From Flavobacteriaceae bacterium (GTDB lineage Bacteria > Bacteroidota > Bacteroidia > Flavobacteriales > Flavobacteriaceae), in contig JABAYY010000030.1 of assembly GCA_018608765.1 (NCBI GenBank), positions 14,064-64,691 of the forward strand: a stretch of DNA of 50,628 nucleotides. Reading direction: 5' to 3'. Shown here in pieces: positions 22,152 through 32,114 of the stretch. Both the position numbers and the translations under genes were made by a program. The notes below the pieces were generated by a model. That model saw only the letters and a program-made list of their open reading frames with translations. It was not told where the DNA came from and ran no database searches. Positions within the stretch are counted from its first letter, which is position 1; the number at the start of each line of letters is the position of its first letter.

Positions 22152-23426
22152 CTACAAAGGGTATTTAGCCCTAATTTCATCCAAGCCTAAATTATGAATA
22201 CTCCCTAAATGTGTGTGGGGAATGCTTGTATCTGACTTATAAGTTCCTTGTTGTACTTGTGCTCCAATAGTTTGATACGCCTCTCGAAACGACGCCCCTT
22301 GCAGAACTAAAGAGTTGATGCTATCCACCGTAAATAGATAGAGGTATTTTTGATCCTTCAAATCAATTGTTTTCACTTGAATTTCTTGAATGGCATAATT
22401 AAAAATATCCAAAATAGCTTCCAATTCTTCAAAGCCTTGAATCATATTTTCTTTTAATAACTGAAAATCGCGGTGGTAGCCACTGGGCAAATTATTGGTA
22501 ATCAAAAGCATCTCCGTTTCCAAACTTTGAAGTTTGTTACACTTCCCTCGGATCAATTCAAAAACATCAGGGTTTTTCTTGTGAGGCATGATACTACTCC
22601 CTGTTGTCAGTGCTTCTGGAAACCCTATAAAATCAAAATTCTGACTCATATACAAACAAATATCCATCGCCATTTTCCCAAGTGTATTGGCTAAATTCCC
22701 TAAACTAGAAGCGATGATGCGTTCGTTTTTTCCACGACTCATTTGTGCTGCCACTACATTGTATTTTAAAGTATTAAAACCAAGTGCTTTGGTTGTAAAC
22801 TCTCTATCAATTGGAAACGAACTTCCATAGCCCGCAGCCGACCCCAAAGGATTTTGATCCACCACTTTCTGAGCTGCTTGCAAGACATACACATCGTCAA
22901 TAAGTGATTCTGCATACGCAGAAAACCACAAACCAAAAGACGAAGGCATGGCAACTTGTAAATGTGTATAGCCTGGTAACAAGGCCGATTTATGTGTATC
23001 TGCTAAGGCAATCAAAGTTTCAAAAAAGGTTTTAGTCTTGTGTTGTATCGACCCCAAACTGGCTTTATAGTATAGCTGTAAAGCCACCAAAACTTGATCG
23101 TTTCTGGAGCGAGCGGTGTGGATTTTCTTACCCGTATCGCCCAAGGCTTTGGTGAGTTCATATTCGAGTTTGGAATGGATGTCCTCAAACTGTGCATCAA
23201 TCACAAAAGTACCTTCACTAATCTGTGACTGAAGATTGTCAAACACGGCTTCGATCGCTATGAGTTCTTCCGAATTTAGAAGTCCTATTTTAACCAACAT
23301 TTGCGCATGCGCTAAGGAAGCTTGAATGTCATAGGTCGCAATTTTAAGATCGATCTCTCTATCGTTTCCGACGGTAAATTTTTCAATGAATGTATCAATT
23401 GAAATGCCTTTATCCCAAAGTTTCAT
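22152..23426 (-). CDS. argH: Argininosuccinate lyase, last gene of the arginine operon
   Basis: 424 aa; cleaves argininosuccinate to arginine and fumarate in the cytosol, the final step of arginine synthesis. Seen: HTARSRND (103-110), GYTHLQVAMP with the general-acid/base-region His155, and the fumarase/aspartase signature GSSIMPHKKNPD (276-287) with the catalytic serine. Length is a little below the ~460 usual for the family; the C-terminus is compact. It starts 2 bases after the argE' stop. No terminator was seen in the 12 bases before the convergent gene end. Confidence 0.95.
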   Translation of the reverse strand: MKLWDKGISIDTFIEKFTVGNDREIDLKIATYDIQASLAHAQMLVKIGLLNSEELIAIEAVFDNLQSQISEGTFVIDAQFEDIHSKLEYELTKALGDTGKKIHTARSRNDQVLVALQLYYKASLGSIQHKTKTFFETLIALADTHKSALLPGYTHLQVAMPSSFGLWFSAYAESLIDDVYVLQAAQKVVDQNPLGSAAGYGSSFPIDREFTTKALGFNTLKYNVVAAQMSRGKNERIIASSLGNLANTLGKMAMDICLYMSQNFDFIGFPEALTTGSSIMPHKKNPDVFELIRGKCNKLQSLETEMLLITNNLPSGYHRDFQLLKENMIQGFEELEAILDIFNYAIQEIQVKTIDLKDQKYLYLFTVDSINSLVLQGASFREAYQTIGAQVQQGTYKSDTSIPHTHLGSIHNLGLDEIRAKYPL

Positions 23427-23428
23427 AG

Positions 23429-24493
23429 CTATAGTATTTTAGTTAATAATTGAATATATAATGCGATGCCCTCTTCTATTTCTTGGACGTAAATAAATTC
23501 ATCGGCGGTATGGGATCGGGTGCTGTCTCCAGGACCTAATTTTAGAGATGGACAACTCAATACCGATTGATCTGAAAGTGTTGGTGACCCATAAGTCCTT
23601 CGTCCTAAGGCTATTCCCGCCTGCACCAACGAATGTGCCACAGGAATGGACGATGAGTTTAATTTTAAACCTCTAGGTTCAATCGATTCACAAGGGGCTT
23701 GTTTTTGAAGAATTTCAACAATTTCTTTATTACTATACTGATCATTAACCCGCACATCTACAACCAGTTCAACGGCTGCTGGAATGGCATTGTGTTGCTT
23801 TCCTGCATTGATTTGCGTCACGGTCATTTTTACAGGCCCTAATGAATCTGAATTTTTTTCGAAACGGAAATCTTTAAACCATTGCAAGACTTCAATCACA
23901 TTATAAATGGCATTATCGGCATTGGGGTGCGCAGCATGTCCAGGTGTTCCTTTGACAAACGCATCAAAAACCACCAAGCCTTTTTCAGCCACAGCAAGTT
24001 GCATTAATGTGGGTTCTCCAACGATAGCCACATCAATATGCGGAATGATCGATAACATACTATTTAAACCAGCATCCCCACTACTCTCTTCTTCTGCAGA
24101 TGCCACAAGAACCAAATTATAATTTAGATGTTCTAGAGCATAAAAATGGGTGAAAGTCGCTATCAATGACACCAAGCATCCACCGGCATCATTGCTCCCA
24201 AGTCCGTACAATTTACCGTTTTCAACCTCAGCTTTAAACGGATCTTTTGTATAGCCATTATTTGGTTTGACGGTATCGTGATGCGAGTTTAAAAGCAGTG
24301 TGGGCTTGGACGCATCAAAGTGTTTATTCAGAGCCCAAATATTATTTTGAGACCGCTGAAACGGAACCTTGTAATCTGTAAACCACTGTTCTATTCGTGC
24401 AGCAGTCAAATGCTCTTCAGATGAAAATGAAGGGATTTCAATTAAATCTTTTAATAATTGAATGGCGGATGTTGATAAATTTTCTTTGGTCAT
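23429..24493 (-). CDS. argE: M20-family acylornithine/acylcitrulline deacylase
   Basis: 354 aa zinc-dependent M20 peptidase-family enzyme. Metal site residues are visible: H71 and D73 in SHHDTV, D102 in GSNDAGG, and E134-E135 in SAEEESSG; the dimerisation domain lies at ~170-275 (HAAHPNADNAIY). In an arginine cluster with an ArgF'-type transcarbamylase it should remove the acyl group after carbamoylation, from N-succinyl- or N-acetylcitrulline, rather than from ornithine; this comes from the known Bacteroides and Xanthomonas pathways and is not shown by residues here. The start overlaps the argB stop by four bases (ATGA). Confidence 0.88.
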   Translation of the reverse strand: MTKENLSTSAIQLLKDLIEIPSFSSEEHLTAARIEQWFTDYKVPFQRSQNNIWALNKHFDASKPTLLLNSHHDTVKPNNGYTKDPFKAEVENGKLYGLGSNDAGGCLVSLIATFTHFYALEHLNYNLVLVASAEEESSGDAGLNSMLSIIPHIDVAIVGEPTLMQLAVAEKGLVVFDAFVKGTPGHAAHPNADNAIYNVIEVLQWFKDFRFEKNSDSLGPVKMTVTQINAGKQHNAIPAAVELVVDVRVNDQYSNKEIVEILQKQAPCESIEPRGLKLNSSSIPVAHSLVQAGIALGRRTYGSPTLSDQSVLSCPSLKLGPGDSTRSHTADEFIYVQEIEEGIALYIQLLTKIL

Positions 24494-25278
24494 TGGATGG
24501 TGAGTGTTGTGAAAATTGCTCCAGAATCAAGCAACATTTCGGGGGTTCCTATACATACTTTAGAGACCTTGTGGTCTAAAGCATGAAAACAGTTATTTAG
24601 TTTTGGGAGCATCCCAGCGTAAATCACTTGGGAGCTGAGTAATTCTTTATAAGAAGCTTTCGTAATGGTTTTAATGACTGAAGCATCATCATTCACGTCT
24701 TTTAAAACACCCTTTTTCTCAAAACAATAGTACAACTGCACTTCAAATTGAGACGCAAAGGCTATGGCCAATTCAGATGCAATCGTATCGGCATTGGTAT
24801 TTAAAAGTTGTCCTTTTTGATCATGTGTGATGGCACAAAACACTGGAGAAATTCCCTGTTCTAATAACAATTCCAAAGTGGATGTTTCTACCTTTTTAAC
24901 ATCGCCAACAAAGCCATAATCTACTGTTGAAATTGGACGTTTTTGAGAGGTAATGGTATTGCCATCAGCACCCGTAAATCCAAGCGCATTACAGTCCAAA
25001 GCTTGTAATTGTGCGACAATTGTTTTGTTGATTTTACCCGCATAGACCATGGTAATAAGCTCTAATGTCGCAGCATCAGTAATGCGTCTGCCATCAATCA
25101 TTTGTACCTCCAACCCAGTTTGATGTGCTAAGGCGGTGGCAGATTTCCCGCCACCATGCACCAAAATTTTAGGCCCTTTGAGAGATGAAAATGTTGTTAA
25201 AAAAGATGCAAGTGCTTGGGAATCGTCAATCACATTCCCTCCTATTTTGACGATCTTGAGTGTTGTGTGCTTATCCAT
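24490..25278 (-). CDS. argB: N-acylglutamate kinase
   Basis: 262 aa from the ATG at 25278 (a TTG two codons earlier is open). Phosphorylates N-acetyl- or N-succinylglutamate. Amino-acid-kinase-fold motifs are present: KIGGNVIDD near the N-terminus, LVHGGGKSATALAHQTGL (substrate and ATP loop), and LNTNADTIASELA for the nucleotide side. It lacks the N-terminal helix of arginine-sensitive hexameric enzymes, so feedback inhibition by arginine through that helix is unlikely. The start lies inside the end of argF' (8-base overlap) and the stop overlaps the argE' start. Confidence 0.93.
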   Translation of the reverse strand: MDKHTTLKIVKIGGNVIDDSQALASFLTTFSSLKGPKILVHGGGKSATALAHQTGLEVQMIDGRRITDAATLELITMVYAGKINKTIVAQLQALDCNALGFTGADGNTITSQKRPISTVDYGFVGDVKKVETSTLELLLEQGISPVFCAITHDQKGQLLNTNADTIASELAIAFASQFEVQLYYCFEKKGVLKDVNDDASVIKTITKASYKELLSSQVIYAGMLPKLNNCFHALDHKVSKVCIGTPEMLLDSGAIFTTLTIQ

Positions 25279-26206
25279 TTTCAAGAATTTTTTTCAAGAC
25301 GAGTTGCGCCGCAAAAGTTCTATTGTTTGATTGTGCAATCACAATGGATTGCTCACTGTCCAAAACCGCATCTTCTACCACTACATTTCGTCGAACAGGT
25401 AAGCAGTGCATAAATTGAGCCGCTCCTAGTTTTTCTTGGGTCATCATCCATTGGGGATCTTGAGAGGTGATTTTGCCATAGTCTGTATAATTACTCCAGT
25501 TTTTTACATACACAAAATCAGCACCTTTCAAGGCCTCATCTTGATCATAAATCACAGGGGTATCTTTGACAATATCTGGATTTAACTCATAGCCTTCTGG
25601 ATGGGTTATGCTAAATTGAACATCAATCGTTTGCATCATTTCTATGAAGGAATTGGCAACCGCATGTGGCAATGCTTTGGGGTGTGGCGCCCATGAAAGT
25701 ACTACTTTAGGTTTTGGAGTTCTTTTTATTTCTTCAATTGTAATGGCGTCTGCCAATGCCTGAAGCGGATGTCCAGTCGCACTTTCCATATTAATAATTG
25801 GAACAGTTGCATAACGTATGAAACTACTCAATATCCATTCGGATAAATCTTTCTGTTTGTCTGTTAAAGAAGGAAAGGCACGAACCGCTAAAATATCTGC
25901 ATATTGTGAAATGACTTGAGCGGCTTCTTTGACATGTTCAGAAGTATTGAGACTCATAACCACTCCCGATTCAAATTCTAATTGCCATGCGTCGGTTACA
26001 TTCAGTACAATCACATCCATCCCTAAATGCTTTGCCGCTTTCTCGGTGCTTAAACGTGTACGAAGGCTCGCATTAAAAAACAACATCACTAAAGTTTTGT
26101 GAGTGCCTAATTTTTTATATTTATAAGGGTTCGATTTTAAAGCAATGGCTTCTTTAACTGCCGATGCAACCGATGAAAGATCTTTAATTTCTATATAATT
26201 ATTCAT
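25271..26206 (-). CDS. argF': N-succinylornithine (or N-acetylornithine) carbamoyltransferase
   Basis: 311 aa. Carbamoyl-phosphate loop FFNASLRTRLSTEKAA (SLRTR replaces the STRTR of ordinary ornithine carbamoyltransferases), the second motif ESATGHPLQALADAIT and HCLPVRR, all typical of the AOTC/SOTC branch. In Bacteroides fragilis this branch uses N-succinylornithine and is essential for arginine synthesis. Whether this enzyme prefers the succinyl or acetyl substrate cannot be fixed by eye. It overlaps argD upstream by an ATGA and argB downstream by eight bases. Confidence 0.9.
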   Translation of the reverse strand: MNNYIEIKDLSSVASAVKEAIALKSNPYKYKKLGTHKTLVMLFFNASLRTRLSTEKAAKHLGMDVIVLNVTDAWQLEFESGVVMSLNTSEHVKEAAQVISQYADILAVRAFPSLTDKQKDLSEWILSSFIRYATVPIINMESATGHPLQALADAITIEEIKRTPKPKVVLSWAPHPKALPHAVANSFIEMMQTIDVQFSITHPEGYELNPDIVKDTPVIYDQDEALKGADFVYVKNWSNYTDYGKITSQDPQWMMTQEKLGAAQFMHCLPVRRNVVVEDAVLDSEQSIVIAQSNNRTFAAQLVLKKILENG

Positions 26207-27327
26207 AATATTTGAGCTAACGCTTTAAAAAATAAATCAATGTGTTCCTTTTTAATTGTTAAGGGAGGTAAAATCCGAATCAAGTTTGGGTTTTTAGAAC
26301 TTCCTGTGAATAAAAAATGATTAAAAAGTAGTTTTTTACGAAGTGCTGCAACAGGGAAATTAAATTCTAATCCAAGCATTAAACCCCGTCCCTTTAGTTT
26401 TTTTAATTTAGGGATTGACTTGGCTTTCTCCATAAAATAAGCCGACATCTCTGTTGCATTATGCATTAAGTTTTCAGACTCCAAAACCTCCAAAACAGCA
26501 AGTGTCGCAGTGCTTGCCAAATGGTTCCCTCCAAAAGTAGTCCCTAACAATCCATAAGATGCTTTGATAGACGGATGAATCAAAATACCTCCAACAGGAA
26601 ATCCATTACCCATTCCCTTTGCCATTGAAATAATATGAGGCGTGATTCCATGTTTTTGGAATGCAAAAAAATCACCTGTACGTCCAAAACCCGATTGTAC
26701 TTCATCAGCTATTAAAACCGTATTGTAGGTCTGACAGAGTAACTCCAATCCTTTATAAAAATTAGTGCTGCTTTCATCAAGTCCACCAACTCCTTGAATA
26801 CACTCAATAATAATGGCACAAATAGGCTCGGATTTTAAAGTTATTTCTACTAAATCTAAGTCTCCAAGCGGTAAAAAACGGACTTGTTGTTGAGCGTTTA
26901 TAGGCGCTACAATTTTGGGGTTATCCGTTGCTGCTACACAGGCAGAAGTGCGTCCATGAAAAGAATTTTCAAACGCAATCACTGTCGCTTTATTGGTGTG
27001 AAACGATGCCAGTTTCAGAGCATTTTCATTGGCTTCCGCACCTGAGCTACACATAAACAAATCATAATTTTTACAGCCTGAAACTTCTTCGAGGCGGTCT
27101 GCTAACTTGGTTTGAAGCGGATTCTGTACAGCATTGCTGTAAAAGCCAATTTTTTGAAGTTGACTGGTCAATGCATTCACATAAACAGGATGGGAATGTC
27201 CAATTGAAATGACGGCATGTCCTCCGTAAAGATCCAAATACTGGGTTCCTTTATCATCATACAAATAAACGTCGTTTGCTTTTACTGGCGTTACATCAAA
27301 AAGTGGATATACATCAAATAGGCTCAT
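26203..27327 (-). CDS. argD: Acylornithine aminotransferase
   Basis: 374 aa, class III PLP aminotransferase. Seen: the PLP lysine in SMAKGMGNGFPVGG, the cofactor Asp in IADEVQSGFGRTG, the phosphate-binding CSSGAEANENALKLA, and the substrate-side TFGGNHLAS. It converts N-acyl-glutamate semialdehyde to N-acylornithine using glutamate. The stop overlaps the argF' start (ATGA) and the start is 2 bases after the proC stop, so it is within the operon. Confidence 0.93.
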   Translation of the reverse strand: MSLFDVYPLFDVTPVKANDVYLYDDKGTQYLDLYGGHAVISIGHSHPVYVNALTSQLQKIGFYSNAVQNPLQTKLADRLEEVSGCKNYDLFMCSSGAEANENALKLASFHTNKATVIAFENSFHGRTSACVAATDNPKIVAPINAQQQVRFLPLGDLDLVEITLKSEPICAIIIECIQGVGGLDESSTNFYKGLELLCQTYNTVLIADEVQSGFGRTGDFFAFQKHGITPHIISMAKGMGNGFPVGGILIHPSIKASYGLLGTTFGGNHLASTATLAVLEVLESENLMHNATEMSAYFMEKAKSIPKLKKLKGRGLMLGLEFNFPVAALRKKLLFNHFLFTGSSKNPNLIRILPPLTIKKEHIDLFFKALAQIL

Positions 27328-27329
27328 AA

Positions 27330-28124
27330 TTAGTGGGCTTTAATACTGTTAATTTTATCAAATGAGGCGACCATTCCTTGAATTAGCGAGGAGCTCAATC
27401 CTTTGTGCTCCATTTCATTCAATCCTTCAATAGTACATCCATTAGGCGTGGTCACTCTATCTATTTCTTGTTCAGGATGATTTCCGGATGTAATCAATAA
27501 ATTGGCGGCGCCTTCACAAGTAAACATAGCAAGGTTTTGAGCTTCTTCTGCATCAAATCCGAGTTGGATGGCTGCTTGAGTTGTAGCACGAATTAAACGC
27601 ATCCAAAAGGCGATTCCACTGGCACAAACGACAGTGGCTGCTTGCATTTGTTGTTCCGGAATTGAGATAGTCGTTCCCAAGCGATTGAAAATGGCTTCGG
27701 CAACGGCTAAGCGTTGTTTCCCCTTTTCATTGCTACAAATACAGGTCATGGATTTTCCAACAGCAATAGCTGTATTTGGCATCGCGCGAATTATATATTG
27801 ACCTACTCCCACAAGACCTTCAATTCTTGAAATTGAAAAGCCAGTAATCGTCGAGATTAACACATGTTTGTCAGTTAGAAAAGGCTGAACTTCTGTTAGA
27901 ATTTTTTCTAAATGGCTAGGTTGAACGGCTAAAATAATAATATCCGATTGCTGAATGGCTTCATTGTTGTCGGACGTTAGAAATACATTTTTATACCCTT
28001 CAAAATCTGTCAAACCATTAACATTTCGCTTGGTAAGATATAAGGTCGTAATCGCATTATTTTTAATGAGCCCTTTGGCAATAGAGCTCCCTAAATTTCC
28101 TGTACCTATAATTGCTATTTTCAT
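27330..28124 (-). CDS. proC: Pyrroline-5-carboxylate reductase inside the arginine operon
   Basis: 264 aa from the ATG at 28124 (MKIAIIGTGNLGSS, the Rossmann dinucleotide motif). A longer frame from 28184 would overlap argC by 50 bases and add a non-conserved tail. The family C-terminus is clear: GEGAANLL-like CEGAANLLI, and RVTTPNGCTIEGLNEME corresponding to the substrate loop V(T)(S)PGGTT. The enzyme makes proline from pyrroline-5-carboxylate, which can come from ornithine. Its place between argC and argD couples proline supply to arginine control. The substrate loop has NGCT in place of the usual GGTT. Confidence 0.92.
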   Translation of the reverse strand: MKIAIIGTGNLGSSIAKGLIKNNAITTLYLTKRNVNGLTDFEGYKNVFLTSDNNEAIQQSDIIILAVQPSHLEKILTEVQPFLTDKHVLISTITGFSISRIEGLVGVGQYIIRAMPNTAIAVGKSMTCICSNEKGKQRLAVAEAIFNRLGTTISIPEQQMQAATVVCASGIAFWMRLIRATTQAAIQLGFDAEEAQNLAMFTCEGAANLLITSGNHPEQEIDRVTTPNGCTIEGLNEMEHKGLSSSLIQGMVASFDKINSIKAH

Positions 28125-28134
28125 GTGTTTATAT

Positions 28135-29112
28135 TTAAAAATAATTAGCTTTAAGTTGTAATCCCAAATGTGAATAAAATCCAAACATTAAATTCATGTT
28201 GTGAACGGCTTGACCTGATGCTCCTTTGAGTAAATTGTCGATGACGCTTGTTATAAGTAGTTTCCCATCATGCACTTCTAAATGCAGTAAACACTTATTG
28301 GTATTGACCACTTGTTTTAAATGCAAGGGATCTTCCGAAACGGTGGTGAATTCTGCATCTTTATAATAGGATTTAAAGAGTGCTTTCGCCGTCTCTAAAG
28401 TACCTTCGTATTTTGTATAAAGGGTGGCGAAAATTCCTCTAGAAAAATTCCCTCTATTGGGGATAAAATGAATCTCACTCTGCAAGCCTTCTTGAAGCGT
28501 ATCTACAGATTGATGGATTTCTCCCAAGTGCTGATGATTAAATGCTTTGTAATGTGAGAAATTATCAACTCGCCATGTAAAATGAGTGGTTGCTGACAAG
28601 GCTGTTCCTGCTCCAGTAGCTCCAGTGACAGCATTCACATGAATGGCATCTTTGACCAAACTGTTGGCTGCTAAAGGCAGAATTGCCAATTGAATAGCCG
28701 TTGCAAAACAACCTGGATTCGCTATGAACCGAGCCGATTGAATGGCAGATTTATTCAATTCTGGCAAGCCATATACAAAGCGTTTTTTTTGAAAGTCTGC
28801 GTCTTGAATGAGTCTAAAATCGTTTGAAAGATCTATGATTCTAGTGGCTTCTGAAAAAGAATTATTTTCTAAAAATGCTTTAGAATTTCCATGCCCTAAA
28901 CAAAGAAATAAGATGTCAACATCTGTATTAATTTTATCTGTAAATAGCTGCTCTGTAGTCCCTACTAAATCTTGGTGAATAGTGCTTAATTTTTTACCTG
29001 CACTCGATGTACTGTACACAAAATTAATTTCAACTTTAGAGTGCATGAGTAACAATCGAATCAATTCTCCTGCGGTGTATCCTGCACCTCCAATAATCCC
29101 TGCTTGTATCAT
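28135..29112 (-). CDS. argC: N-acyl-gamma-glutamyl-phosphate reductase
   Basis: 325 aa. NADPH-binding N-terminus AGIIGGAGYTAGELIRLL, catalytic cysteine in ANPGCFATAIQLA, and the HQHLGEI and RGIFATLY motifs near the active site. Reduces the acylglutamyl phosphate made by ArgB to the semialdehyde. The start overlaps the argG stop by four bases (ATGA); the stop is 10 bases before proC. Confidence 0.94.
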   Translation of the reverse strand: MIQAGIIGGAGYTAGELIRLLLMHSKVEINFVYSTSSAGKKLSTIHQDLVGTTEQLFTDKINTDVDILFLCLGHGNSKAFLENNSFSEATRIIDLSNDFRLIQDADFQKKRFVYGLPELNKSAIQSARFIANPGCFATAIQLAILPLAANSLVKDAIHVNAVTGATGAGTALSATTHFTWRVDNFSHYKAFNHQHLGEIHQSVDTLQEGLQSEIHFIPNRGNFSRGIFATLYTKYEGTLETAKALFKSYYKDAEFTTVSEDPLHLKQVVNTNKCLLHLEVHDGKLLITSVIDNLLKGASGQAVHNMNLMFGFYSHLGLQLKANYF

Positions 29113-30302
29113 AATTCCGAATTTACTTGTTGATGAATTTTGTTTTGATTTCCGTTAATCTTAATAAAACCTTTGGCTTCTTCTGCAGTCCATCCGTTGT
29201 TAATTTCACCATAACTTCCAAACTTTGCATTCATCAAATCATATTCTGATTGAATCCCGTTAATTGAAAAATGATAGGGTTTTAATTCTACTTCTACAGA
29301 ACCCGTTACGCTCTCTTGACTGTTGGCTAAAAACGCTTCCATATCACGCATAACTGGATCTAAATACTGACCTTCATGCAAATGCATGCCATAAAAATTA
29401 GACAAATAATCTTTGTGTTGGAGTTGCCATTTTGTTAAAGTGTGTTTCTCTAACAAATGATGTGCTTTAACTGTAATTAATGCTGCAGCCGCTTCAAATC
29501 CCACACGACCTTTGATACCAACAATGGTATCGCCTACATGAATGTCTCTACCAATGGCAAATTTTGAGGCCCTGCCATCCAAAAGCTGGATATTAATTTC
29601 AGGGGCATTCTCAACACCATCAAGTGCTGTCAGTTCTCCTTTTTTAAAAGTGAGGGTTACGGTTTCAGATGTTACAGATTCTAACTGGGATGGATAGGCT
29701 GCTTCTGGCAAAGCCAAATGAGAGGTAAGCGTTTCATCGCCTCCAACACTGGTTCCCCAAAGTCCTTTGTTGACAGAATATTTTGCTTTTTCCCAATCCA
29801 AATCAATGCCGTTTAATTTCAGATAGGCTATTTCTTCCTGACGTGAGAGCTTCTGATCTCTTATTGGTGTGATGATTTCTATTTCAGGTGCAAGGGTTTG
29901 GAAAATCATATCAAAACGTACTTGATCATTTCCAGCACCTGTACTCCCGTGAGCGATGTATTCTGCTCCTATGGATTTTGCGTACTCAATAATTTCAATG
30001 GCTTGCACAATCCGTTCAGCACTCACAGAAAGTGGGTAGGTATTGTTTTTTAAGACATTTCCGAAAATAAGGAATTTCACTACTTTTTGATAAAAGGTGG
30101 TGACCGCTTCGATATTTTTATAGGTTGACACTCCCATTTTATAAGCGTTTTGTTCAATGGTTTGCACGTCATTTTTAGAAAATCCGCCTGTATTGACACT
30201 CACGGCATGCACTTCAAAACCCGCTTTTGATAACGAAACAGCACAGTAAGAGGTATCTAAACCGCCACTGTAAGCGATGACTAGTTTTTTTGAGTTTTTC
30301 AT
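29109..30302 (-). CDS. argG: Argininosuccinate synthase
   Basis: 397 aa. ATP P-loop of the N-type ATP pyrophosphatases AYSGGLDTSYC, the ATP/citrulline-site stretches IAHGSTGAGNDQVRFD and YSVNKGLWGTSVGG, all typical of ArgG. Joins citrulline and aspartate with ATP. It is the second gene of the operon, coupled on both sides by ATGA overlaps with the GNAT gene and argC. Confidence 0.95.
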   Translation of the reverse strand: MKNSKKLVIAYSGGLDTSYCAVSLSKAGFEVHAVSVNTGGFSKNDVQTIEQNAYKMGVSTYKNIEAVTTFYQKVVKFLIFGNVLKNNTYPLSVSAERIVQAIEIIEYAKSIGAEYIAHGSTGAGNDQVRFDMIFQTLAPEIEIITPIRDQKLSRQEEIAYLKLNGIDLDWEKAKYSVNKGLWGTSVGGDETLTSHLALPEAAYPSQLESVTSETVTLTFKKGELTALDGVENAPEINIQLLDGRASKFAIGRDIHVGDTIVGIKGRVGFEAAAALITVKAHHLLEKHTLTKWQLQHKDYLSNFYGMHLHEGQYLDPVMRDMEAFLANSQESVTGSVEVELKPYHFSINGIQSEYDLMNAKFGSYGEINNGWTAEEAKGFIKINGNQNKIHQQVNSEL

Positions 30303-30916
30303 TTTTTATGTTTGTTTAGAAACAAGCTTTGCTTGATACTTTTTAATCTTAGGAAGGTTTTTTCTTTCACTTTCTCAGAAGTAACTTCTGGTTTGGAACT
30401 AGGGTCATATAACATCCCAGTACACAAACACATGCTTTGAGTTGTTCGTTGAAGAACATCATAGTTTTTACAAGTTTGACAGCCGTTCCAAAACGAAGCT
30501 TCGTCCGTAAGTTCCGAAAAAGTAACAGGCTTATATCCCAGAGCAGTGTTTAGTTTCATCACGGCTAGACCCGTAGTGATGCTAAATATTTTTGCGTTGG
30601 GATATTTGGATCTTGAATGCTCAAAAACGACTTGCTTAATTTTTTTAGCTAAGCCTTGATTTCTAAAATCAGGATGCACAATGAGACCTGAATTGGCCAC
30701 AAATTTATCATGGCTCCAAGTTTCTATATAGCAAAAACCTGCAAAAACATCCCCCTCTAAGGCAATGACAGCATTGTTGGTTTCCATTTTAGAAATAATA
30801 TATTCTATGGTGCGTTTTGCAATTCCTGTTCCTCTTACTTGTGCAGCAGCTTCGATGGCTTCACAAATAGTATGAGCGTGAATTGTATGAGATTTATCTG
30901 CAATAATGATGTCCAT
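30299..30916 (-). CDS. GNAT acyltransferase, probable first enzyme (glutamate N-acyltransferase) of the operon
   Basis: 205 aa. A GNAT fold with acyl-CoA loop HPDFRNQGLAKKI (81-93) and core strands VIALEGDVFAGFCYIE. After the fold comes a Cys cluster, C146-x2-C149 and C163-x-C165 (WNGCQTCKNYD, MCLCTG), then a basic tail. It is the leading gene of the arginine operon, so the likely job is acylation of glutamate (argA-like), but it is unlike the kinase-fused E. coli ArgA. The cysteines could bind metal and add regulation. The ATG at 30916 is 84 bases downstream of the leader-peptide stop. Confidence 0.75.
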   Translation of the reverse strand: MDIIIADKSHTIHAHTICEAIEAAAQVRGTGIAKRTIEYIISKMETNNAVIALEGDVFAGFCYIETWSHDKFVANSGLIVHPDFRNQGLAKKIKQVVFEHSRSKYPNAKIFSITTGLAVMKLNTALGYKPVTFSELTDEASFWNGCQTCKNYDVLQRTTQSMCLCTGMLYDPSSKPEVTSEKVKEKTFLRLKSIKQSLFLNKHKK

Positions 30917-30934
30917 TATTTAAGATTTAAGTTG

Positions 30935-30983
30935 AAAAAAAAGTTGAAAAAATTGAAAGATGAACCGGACACACCTAAGTTCA
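30935..30983 (-). terminator. Candidate attenuator hairpin before the arginine operon
   Basis: In transcript sense, TGAACT pairs with GGTTCA (one G-T pair) around a GG/CC inner stem (30961-30983), followed by U-rich sequence with runs of six and eight U (30947-30952, 30935-30942). An upstream GTTC, four bases after the leader stop, can instead pair with the same GAAC, giving a mutually exclusive fold. Stems are short, so the fold is tentative. Confidence 0.45.
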
Positions 30984-31000
30984 GAAATTAATGGAACACC

Positions 31001-31096
31001 CTAAGGGCGACGGCGCGTAATACGAGGACGTGCAAAACCGGGGCTATAAAGAATAACCGTTGGGGTAATGAAGGTTTTAAAATTATGTATGTCCAT
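31001..31096 (-). CDS. Arginine-rich leader peptide of the arginine operon (31 aa)
   Basis: A 31-codon ORF (ATG 31096, TAG 31001-31003) not long enough for usual gene calling. It begins MDIHNFKTFITPTVILYSPG and ends FARPRITRRRP: five of the last nine residues are Arg, and all use CGT or CGC codons. The stop lies 84 bases before the first gene of the arginine operon, with a hairpin and U runs between. This is the classical layout of a ribosome-mediated attenuator, where shortage of charged tRNA-Arg stalls the ribosome at the Arg codons. The region is noticeably richer in G and C than the DNA around it, suggesting constraint. Confidence 0.75.
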   Translation of the reverse strand: MDIHNFKTFITPTVILYSPGFARPRITRRRP

Positions 31097-31109
31097 ATAA
31101 ATGTTGTCA

Positions 31110-31125
31110 ACGATAACACTATCGT
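31110..31125. promoter_or_regulatory. Perfect inverted repeat before the arginine leader ORF
   Basis: ACGATA-ACAC-TATCGT (6+4+6) lies 14 bases upstream of the leader ATG. It may be a hairpin in the leader RNA or a repressor site. The rest of the gap to 31289 is AT-rich, and I see nothing else in it. Confidence 0.4.
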
Positions 31126-31289
31126 CTTATAAATATGGAGTAAATATAGAAATTAATTAAAGTGGGGCATGATGGTGGTCAAAAATATTTGTAGTTTTTT
31201 GATATTTTAAAAATACGCTTGTATTTGTTATTGATAATTAAAAAATAAAACTAATTAATGCGGAAATCTCAGACTATTTTTTTCTACAA

Positions 31290-32114
31290 CTAGCGTCTCA
31301 TGCGATTATTTCGAAATTCTTTCATTTTATCAGTAATGATCTCTTGGTATTCTTTTTTTGAGACTTCTTTCCCTTTACTGGGTGCTTCAATCTCAATAAT
31401 TTCATCTGGATTAAGCACTATTTTTGAGCAAAGCATGGTTGTATTATTAGCGCTAACTTCTAAAATTAGGCCTGGCAAACCCCAATAATCTAAAGGCCCG
31501 TGGCGTACTGGAATTTGTGGAGCGTACCACGCCTCTATTTGAGTCATCTTAACTTCTTTCACTTGTGTAGAATCGGACTCTGTTGTGTTTCTTAACTTAT
31601 CCCAAGAAAAAGAATACCATGTCAATTCATCTGAAGGAATTGAGGCTGTGGCTTTAAAACATGAATAGTTTCCAATCTTTTTTGTTTCAGATTCTAAGCT
31701 CCACTCTATGGGTTGTAATACATCCTGAACCAAAAACTTTTTCCCATAAAACTCTTGCTCTTGAAGTTGGGTATTTGTTTTTACATTTTTATATTGTTTT
31801 CCAGGCGCAAAATTTTTGCCCCAAGAATCAGTAGCCCCAGAAATAGCATCCAATTGATCCTCTTCAATAAATACAGATTCTTCTTTATTAAAAGACAAAA
31901 CATAGCCTTTTTCGAGCCTGTTTTTCATACGCGCCTCAACTTCTTTTTTCTGAGCTTCACTCAGTCGAGCTCCCCATTTCCCTAAATCCATTTTAGATTT
32001 AGAAAAATAATAAGCCTTCGCTTGAAATTCTTGCGTGGTCTGTGTTTCATTCACACTTGTTGAGATTAAAAAAACAAATACGAGCGCGAGAGTAGTGATG
32101 ACTTTTGACTTCAT
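31290..32114 (-). CDS. GLPGLI family exported protein
   Basis: 274 aa with a signal peptide (~1-22, TTLALVFVFLISTSVNET). The family motif is present as GPLDYWGLPGLILEV, preceded by the usual EAWYAPQIPV. GLPGLI proteins are Bacteroidota-specific and of unknown function; some lie beside TonB receptors or peptidases. The C-terminal ~40 residues are charged and helical (KKEYQEIITDKMKEFRNNR). It appears monocistronic, with its own promoter candidate upstream. Confidence 0.88.
   Translation of the reverse strand: MKSKVITTLALVFVFLISTSVNETQTTQEFQAKAYYFSKSKMDLGKWGARLSEAQKKEVEARMKNRLEKGYVLSFNKEESVFIEEDQLDAISGATDSWGKNFAPGKQYKNVKTNTQLQEQEFYGKKFLVQDVLQPIEWSLESETKKIGNYSCFKATASIPSDELTWYSFSWDKLRNTTESDSTQVKEVKMTQIEAWYAPQIPVRHGPLDYWGLPGLILEVSANNTTMLCSKIVLNPDEIIEIEAPSKGKEVSKKEYQEIITDKMKEFRNNRMRR

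Follow-up and report, generated by a model that had tools for sequence, protein, structure and literature searches.

A candidate arginine-responsive leader with two RNA hairpins upstream of the arginine operon in Flavobacteriaceae

The arginine operon and its leader region

The window, the whole 50,628-nucleotide stretch of a Flavobacteriaceae bacterium analysed here, carries a nine-gene arginine biosynthesis operon on its minus strand, preceded by a short leader open reading frame (ORF) and two hairpins. Gene naming by Pfam and NCBIfam confirmed the operon announced by a first-pass annotation of the same DNA: it contains a GNAT acetyltransferase, argG, an argC-type dehydrogenase, a proC-like gene, a class-III aminotransferase (argD type), a carbamoyltransferase, argB, an M20 peptidase and an argH-type lyase. 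The features of the region are as follows.

31141 to 31148, minus strand: putative -7 promoter box TATATTTA (consensus TAnnTTTG)
31001 to 31096, minus strand: leader peptide ORF of 31 codons with an ATG start; similar ends in relatives
31007 to 31015, minus strand: Arg-Arg-Arg codons CGC CGT CGC, the third within the 5' arm of hairpin 1
30997 to 31009, minus strand: hairpin 1, CGCCC-TTA-GGGTG, over the stop codon TAG; stem kept where the stop has moved
30984 to 30996, minus strand: T-rich linker of 13 nt (11–14 nt across 90 parsed loci)
30961 to 30983, minus strand: hairpin 2, UGAACU-UA-GG-UGUGU-CC-GGUUCA with an unpaired UA; covariation, covariance model R1
22152 to 30916, minus strand: arginine biosynthesis operon, nine genes

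The leader peptide, MDIHNFKTFITPTVILYSPGFARPRITRRRP (31 aa, then a stop), has the C-terminal end ARPRITRRRP, with Arg codons in five of its last nine positions, as the annotation had described, and its ORF ends 84 nt from the first operon gene. The hairpin that the annotation had drawn at 30961–30983, TGAACT-ta-GG[TGTGT]CC-GGTTCA, is likewise there and is our hairpin 2; hairpin 1 is a second hairpin, absent from the annotation's list.

The position of the putative promoter box reads TATATTTG in two related loci (L007, L008), and an exact TATTTTTG also occurs in the window at 31180–31187. The -7 consensus of Bacteroidota is TAnnTTTG (PMC9723704), and this motif was found in 44 of 90 upstream regions, compared with 16.3 in shuffled sequences and 8 on the antisense strand. 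Many of these boxes lie a few nucleotides ahead of the leader's ATG, an argument against a transcription start beyond the leader.

The leader region of the window is also overlapped by further short ORFs, and the fold of the single sequence is not significant: the 184-nt leader alone was not unusually stable (z = -1.22). In its minimum-energy fold the start of the leader pairs with hairpin 2, a pairing that is missing by eye in L004 and L011. Overlapping ORFs and an unremarkable fold would suit a chance ORF without function; that reading is refuted by the conservation in relatives described below, and we give it practically no credence.

Conservation of the leader ORF and the hairpins in Flavobacteriaceae

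For comparison we searched GNAT in 60 genomes, of which 34 had a match and 30 loci were taken, and in named genomes, where the best 80 of at least 592 loci were kept and are therefore close relatives. Of these 110 loci, a few of which represent the same genome twice, 102 were parsed (the exceptions being L012, L026, L028–L031, L072 and L116), and 12 more were left out (nine with odd parsing of hairpin 1, three duplicates), leaving 90 loci, or 74 after removal of near-duplicates. The R1 alignment holds 78 of 90 references, a set nearly identical to the 90 parsed loci.

The short ORF, its terminal Arg codons and the hairpin of the first-pass annotation proved to be kept across Flavobacteriaceae, with peptide end, frame and both hairpins recurring. 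Upstream of GNAT the N-terminal parts of the leaders differ while their ends are alike (ITRRRP, AFRRP, FPRRP, VPVRRRP, RRRRP). Every one of the 90 parsed loci has the frame open and at least one ATG, GTG or TTG in it; 69 have an ATG. Over the eight codons before hairpin 1 the Arg codons number 2.83 on average, whereas the other frames have 0.23 and 0.36 and shuffled sequences 0.63; at least two are present in 82 of the 90. Among 12 same-genus loci, pairwise codon differences in the leader frame were 310 synonymous and 651 non-synonymous, compared with 154 and 778, and 114 and 841, in the other two frames. CGU and CGC make up 241 of the 255 leader Arg codons (94%), compared with 141 of 639 (22%) when the GNAT genes of the 80 loci from named genomes are counted, a bias that could come partly from RNA-level selection beside hairpin 1. 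This gives strong comparative support to the proposal that a ribosome on CGY Arg codons would be the sensor.

The TnaC peptide ends at or near Arg-Pro-stop, and the fungal arginine attenuator peptide responds to arginine. An analogous nascent-chain arrest, in which free arginine in the ribosome would block release at the terminal RRP and stop as tryptophan does for TnaC, would be consistent with the Pro-stop over hairpin 1 that ends 79 of the 90 leaders, mostly as RRP, and with the distance of 15–19 nt from stop to hairpin 2 in those 79. Unlike TnaC and the fungal peptide, however, the arginine leader is not conserved in peptide sequence, and its stop has been lost from this position in 11 of the 90 loci. 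By eye, no conserved peptide beyond the sensor residues was seen in the 90 loci, the residues upstream differing between genera, and the CGY bias favours reading by tRNA over recognition of residues, making arrest an unlikely explanation.

A second Arg-rich ORF (e.g., MKTLKNKIRCSTQGLPTRNRRRF, then a stop) was observed ahead of the leader, at about -300 to -225 from GNAT; a loose pattern found it in 34 of 105 loci, about 29 of them convincing by eye (e.g., L017, L019, L045, L054, L070, L087).

Family-wide, the last Arg and Pro codons, and usually also the stop, lie within hairpin 1, and hairpin 2 begins 11–14 nt further on. All 90 parsed loci show this spacing, the 11 whose stop has moved among them; among the nine oddly parsed loci outside this count, six show 12–14 nt, and the values of 25, 25 and 6 nt in L064, L091 and L096 are taken for misparses. 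Hairpin 2 consists of a covarying stem and a conserved core, GGUGNGUCC, whose strict form GGTGNGTCC is present in 25 of the 30 loci from the genome sample and 73 of the 80 from named genomes. Three Psychroflexus loci and one Lutibacter locus carry GATGNGTTC with the inner pair preserved, and the conservation of the core exceeds what a plain stem would need.

Across the 78 aligned sequences, 89.1% of the cells of the 12-pair structure are paired, compared with 82.3% after shuffling, and 58 cells show double changes, compared with 16.6 in shuffled alignments and 3–11 in slid controls. Changes on both sides occurred in all five outer pairs and one of the two inner pairs of hairpin 2. In the alignment hairpin 1 comes out weakly: 80.3% of its cells pair, and 2 cells show both-side changes, a result due in part to misregister between loops of 3 and 4 nt. 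The hairpin is best supported by its persistence in the 11 loci with a moved stop and by the CGCAC/GUGCG stem of L022 and L077. RNAalifold, run on a longer alignment of 74 sequences, returned hairpins 1 and 2 only. Rfam models gave only matches below their gathering scores for positions 30700–31400 of the window and for 16 chosen loci.

Covariance model R1 finds the element in its own genome at E = 2.1e-11, the model rows including that sequence, and, at E <= 0.1, gives 96 matches spread over 93 of the 149 family genomes; the GNAT alignment matches 99 of 149 genomes drawn in the same way. Of the 96 R1 matches, 91 sit on the GNAT strand, 40–238 nt upstream of the gene (the limit being set at 250). 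The 92nd (L190, G124:C41) stands before a 194-aa ORF that has no Pfam match, with argG next, so that the element stays with the operon though the first gene differs, and the remaining four have E values of 0.012–0.051. GNAT occurs together with a strong R1 match (E < 1e-4) in 89 genomes and without one in ten: two of these (G155, G173) have weaker matches in place, and in G116 the GNAT itself is doubtful. By eye, G073, G105, G121 and G150 retain an Arg-containing leader end, G179 has only the upstream leader, and G109 and G166 have no such leader. Of 296 genomes sampled across the class, 99 had GNAT and 5 had R1, all five being Flavobacteriaceae; R1 was not found in the five other Flavobacteriaceae GNAT genomes of that sample, all of genus g146. 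Loci of this genus (L159, L160, L161/L196) have a different leader ORF, MNKISLHITSLSRT...SPEVRML.., with no two-hairpin element upstream of GNAT.

Terminators, alternative pairings and the histidine leaders

The first-pass annotation had drawn a switch in which the GAAC of hairpin 2 could instead pair with a GTTC just past the leader stop, followed by U6 and U8 runs. The letters are as it described: the GTTC is present at 30997–30994, and both U runs lie 3' of hairpin 2. The first run begins 8 nt beyond the base of the hairpin, too far for a standard terminator, and no intrinsic terminator was detected within 30900–31300 of the window. As drawn, this switch fails across the family, where GTTC past the stop occurs in 10 of 90 loci and the pairing is not enriched. 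Within the genus the GTTC is present in 8 of 13 loci (3 more have GTTT, for which G-U pairing is possible), so an alternative GTTC pairing is possible there. What stands of the annotation's overall interpretation is an arginine-sensing leader before the arginine operon, supported by its recurrence in relatives; the switch it drew is unsupported.

More generally, the anatomy of classical trp- or his-type attenuation would make hairpin 2 the terminator and would form the antiterminator from the segment past the stop and the 5' arm of hairpin 2. The Arg-run leader, the hairpins and the same-genus GTTC all suit this, and terminator-like structures were detected in 20 of 90 arginine leaders, compared with 5.3 after shuffling. 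In 34 of 74 loci, some 8-nt stretch of the 28 nt after hairpin 2 contains at least 6 T, and some lineages may have a terminator. Against it, the 9 nt after hairpin 2 contain a mean of 2.9 T over the 74 loci, and in these 74 sequences pairing between the linker and the 5' side of hairpin 2 stays at the level of shuffled linkers (mean z of -0.05 and -0.16, SE 0.10 and 0.15).

Alternative pairings of the linker, leader and start region with the tail or the hairpins were also tried and rejected; in 14 comparisons, short pairings being below the power of the test, mean z ranged from -0.23 to +0.79. The lowest value (SE 0.10) belongs to the 3' arm of hairpin 1 plus linker against the 3' half of hairpin 2 and is slight. 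The one exception to the range, the leader against the 3' arm of hairpin 1 plus linker (mean z -0.50), contains hairpin 1 itself.

The histidine operons of the same genomes do show the classical anatomy. A His-run leader was detected in 29 of 30 hisG loci (30 of 33 matches taken), and 26 of the 29 are terminator-like, compared with 0.7 after shuffling. These leaders (L231–L259, e.g., MTFIQLHHHHFHTCTQAS, then a stop) look like a textbook his attenuator in Flavobacteriaceae; in that of the window's own genome (L258), a 12-bp hairpin with a T tract follows, and by eye the end of the leader mimics the 3' arm of the terminator. The histidine and arginine leaders share a run of product codons, but the arginine leader of this genome has neither the T-tract hairpin nor the mimicking end. 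Set beside the arginine counts and the window's own arginine leader region, where no terminator was detected, the histidine result argues that the arginine element is not simply the same device. Taken over the family, classical attenuation appears improbable, about on a par with arrest, and the proposed off-signal does not, for most of the family, resemble a standard intrinsic terminator.

Several other readings of the element were rejected. A general attenuation hairpin shared among operons is not what R1 finds, since each genome has one strong match, at the arginine operon; at hisG (30 loci) the best E value was 3.9 and the strict core was absent. An ORF starting from the GUG in the core of hairpin 2 was dropped because its frame is no more open than another and its phase to GNAT is even, and pairing of AGGUGA with the 16S anti-Shine–Dalgarno sequence was dropped because the Psychroflexus core varies, by eye, to AGAUGA. 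Possible resemblances of the element to tRNA and to the MS2 operator were considered and set aside.

Other Bacteroidia, ArgR and a proposed arginine switch

Outside Flavobacteriaceae we examined 91 GNAT loci (88 of the 89 class matches, the weak G230 being left out, plus G037, G050 and G052). An Arg-rich leader, defined as a short ORF whose final 14 residues include at least 4 Arg, was detected at 35 of these, compared with 10 on the antisense strand and 5.05 after shuffling, and spans 17 of 34 families. Typical ends, each before the stop, are RRRVYSPRV, RRRPMFRSRI, LRFRRPILPRA and RRRPVRV. In family f52, a G+C-rich hairpin and then T6 come after the leaders of L215 (below the 4-Arg threshold) and L216, with RSPRRQ or RSLRRRP, and the ends of these leaders repeat the 3' arm of the terminator (all by eye), which is the layout of a textbook arginine attenuator and would fit classical attenuation in that family. 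Hairpins with a UAYGY pentaloop, mostly closed by CC/GG, were observed in several families near the position of hairpin 2, at 13 of the 91 loci, compared with 0.3 after shuffling (e.g., L212, L223, L218, L228, L029); the loop was picked after inspection, so this count is a description and not a test.

These pentaloops, together with the conservation of the hairpin 2 core, would suit an RNA that binds a ligand or protein in the manner of a riboswitch, with the leader ORF secondary. The Arg codons and frame kept in all 90 parsed loci argue against this, as do the distant families, which keep leaders while the RNA differs, and we rate it as somewhat less probable still than arrest or classical attenuation.

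Arginine operons are usually described as controlled by ArgR. The ArgR domain PF01316 was found in none of 60 genomes, including the window's own (G000, 87% complete), and in 9 of 14 controls. In the class sample it matches 16 of 296 genomes, 13 of them above the cut-off. One of the 13, G345, has R1 and a borderline ArgR in a 312-aa frame on a different contig from its GNAT; eight of the other 12 carry GNAT, each with its ArgR match on the same strand 302–371 nt upstream of that gene (distances subtracted by hand). Two of these eight (G290, G420) are also among the 35 loci with an Arg-rich ORF, which may be chance there, and the other six have no such ORF; many outside loci have neither leader nor ArgR. 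The leader element, kept in most of the relatives examined that possess these genes, apparently stands in for the usual arginine repressor.

On the comparative evidence we think it probable that the element is a cis-acting arginine switch, a codon-reading leader akin to ribosome-mediated attenuation whose output would be the two-hairpin RNA. A ribosome translating the leader ORF would sense charged tRNA-Arg at the run of CGU and CGC codons that ends inside hairpin 1. With enough arginine, it would finish and depart, hairpin 1 would fold, and hairpins 1 and 2 would together present an off-signal that RNA polymerase or an RNA-binding factor could read. When arginine is scarce, the ribosome would stall at the CGY codons, its leading edge within hairpin 1; this hairpin would be blocked, and the operon would be expressed. 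The position of hairpin 1 suggests that it is the part the ribosome opens or leaves to close, and the narrow spacing and conserved core suggest that the two hairpins together are the output; no alternative fold linking the position of the ribosome to hairpin 2 was found, so the output step is a guess. It is because of the terminator, pairing and GTTC results that we hold to this view of sensor, hairpin 1 and two-hairpin output.

Like the his, trp, leu and thr leaders of ribosome-mediated attenuation, the arginine element places an ORF with product codons and hairpins before a biosynthetic operon. Unlike them, it mostly lacks an intrinsic terminator or a supported antiterminator, and its hairpins are not mutually exclusive and include one with a conserved loop. 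Arginine is not known to be among the proteobacterial examples of such attenuation. A comparable arrangement is the uORFC-8-2 cysS motif of Alphaproteobacteria (PMC8632094), in which tandem codons of the upstream ORF likewise lie inside the first of two stems, although that motif, unlike ours, has been described as compatible with an intrinsic terminator; the same paper treats upstream-ORF attenuators in other phyla. Within the phylum, leader-like small ORFs have been described in Bacteroides (PMC7366714), and for Flavobacterium psychrophilum strong indications that leader peptides attenuate amino acid operons have been reported, with pheA and hisG elements named and arginine not mentioned in the section concerned (PMC9723704). 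None of the open-licence papers listed by our searches, judged by title and the opening lines of the abstract, describes this element or an arginine leader attenuator from Bacteroidota.

We further suggest, as a more tentative possibility, that the two hairpins make up a dedicated receptor, to which a protein, RNA polymerase or arginine itself would bind and whose folding would be gated by the ribosome on the CGY codons. The element might then represent a terminator-free class of attenuator that controls arginine synthesis in Flavobacteriaceae, with a related form sharing a U-R-N-G-Y pentaloop in other Bacteroidia without ArgR. A clade without detected ArgR has an arginine-rich leader instead, while the eight class genomes with both ArgR and GNAT have ArgR just upstream. 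The family offers a testable case of an attenuator without a visible terminator, found alongside a his attenuator of textbook appearance, in a phylum where regulation by RNA has received little study.
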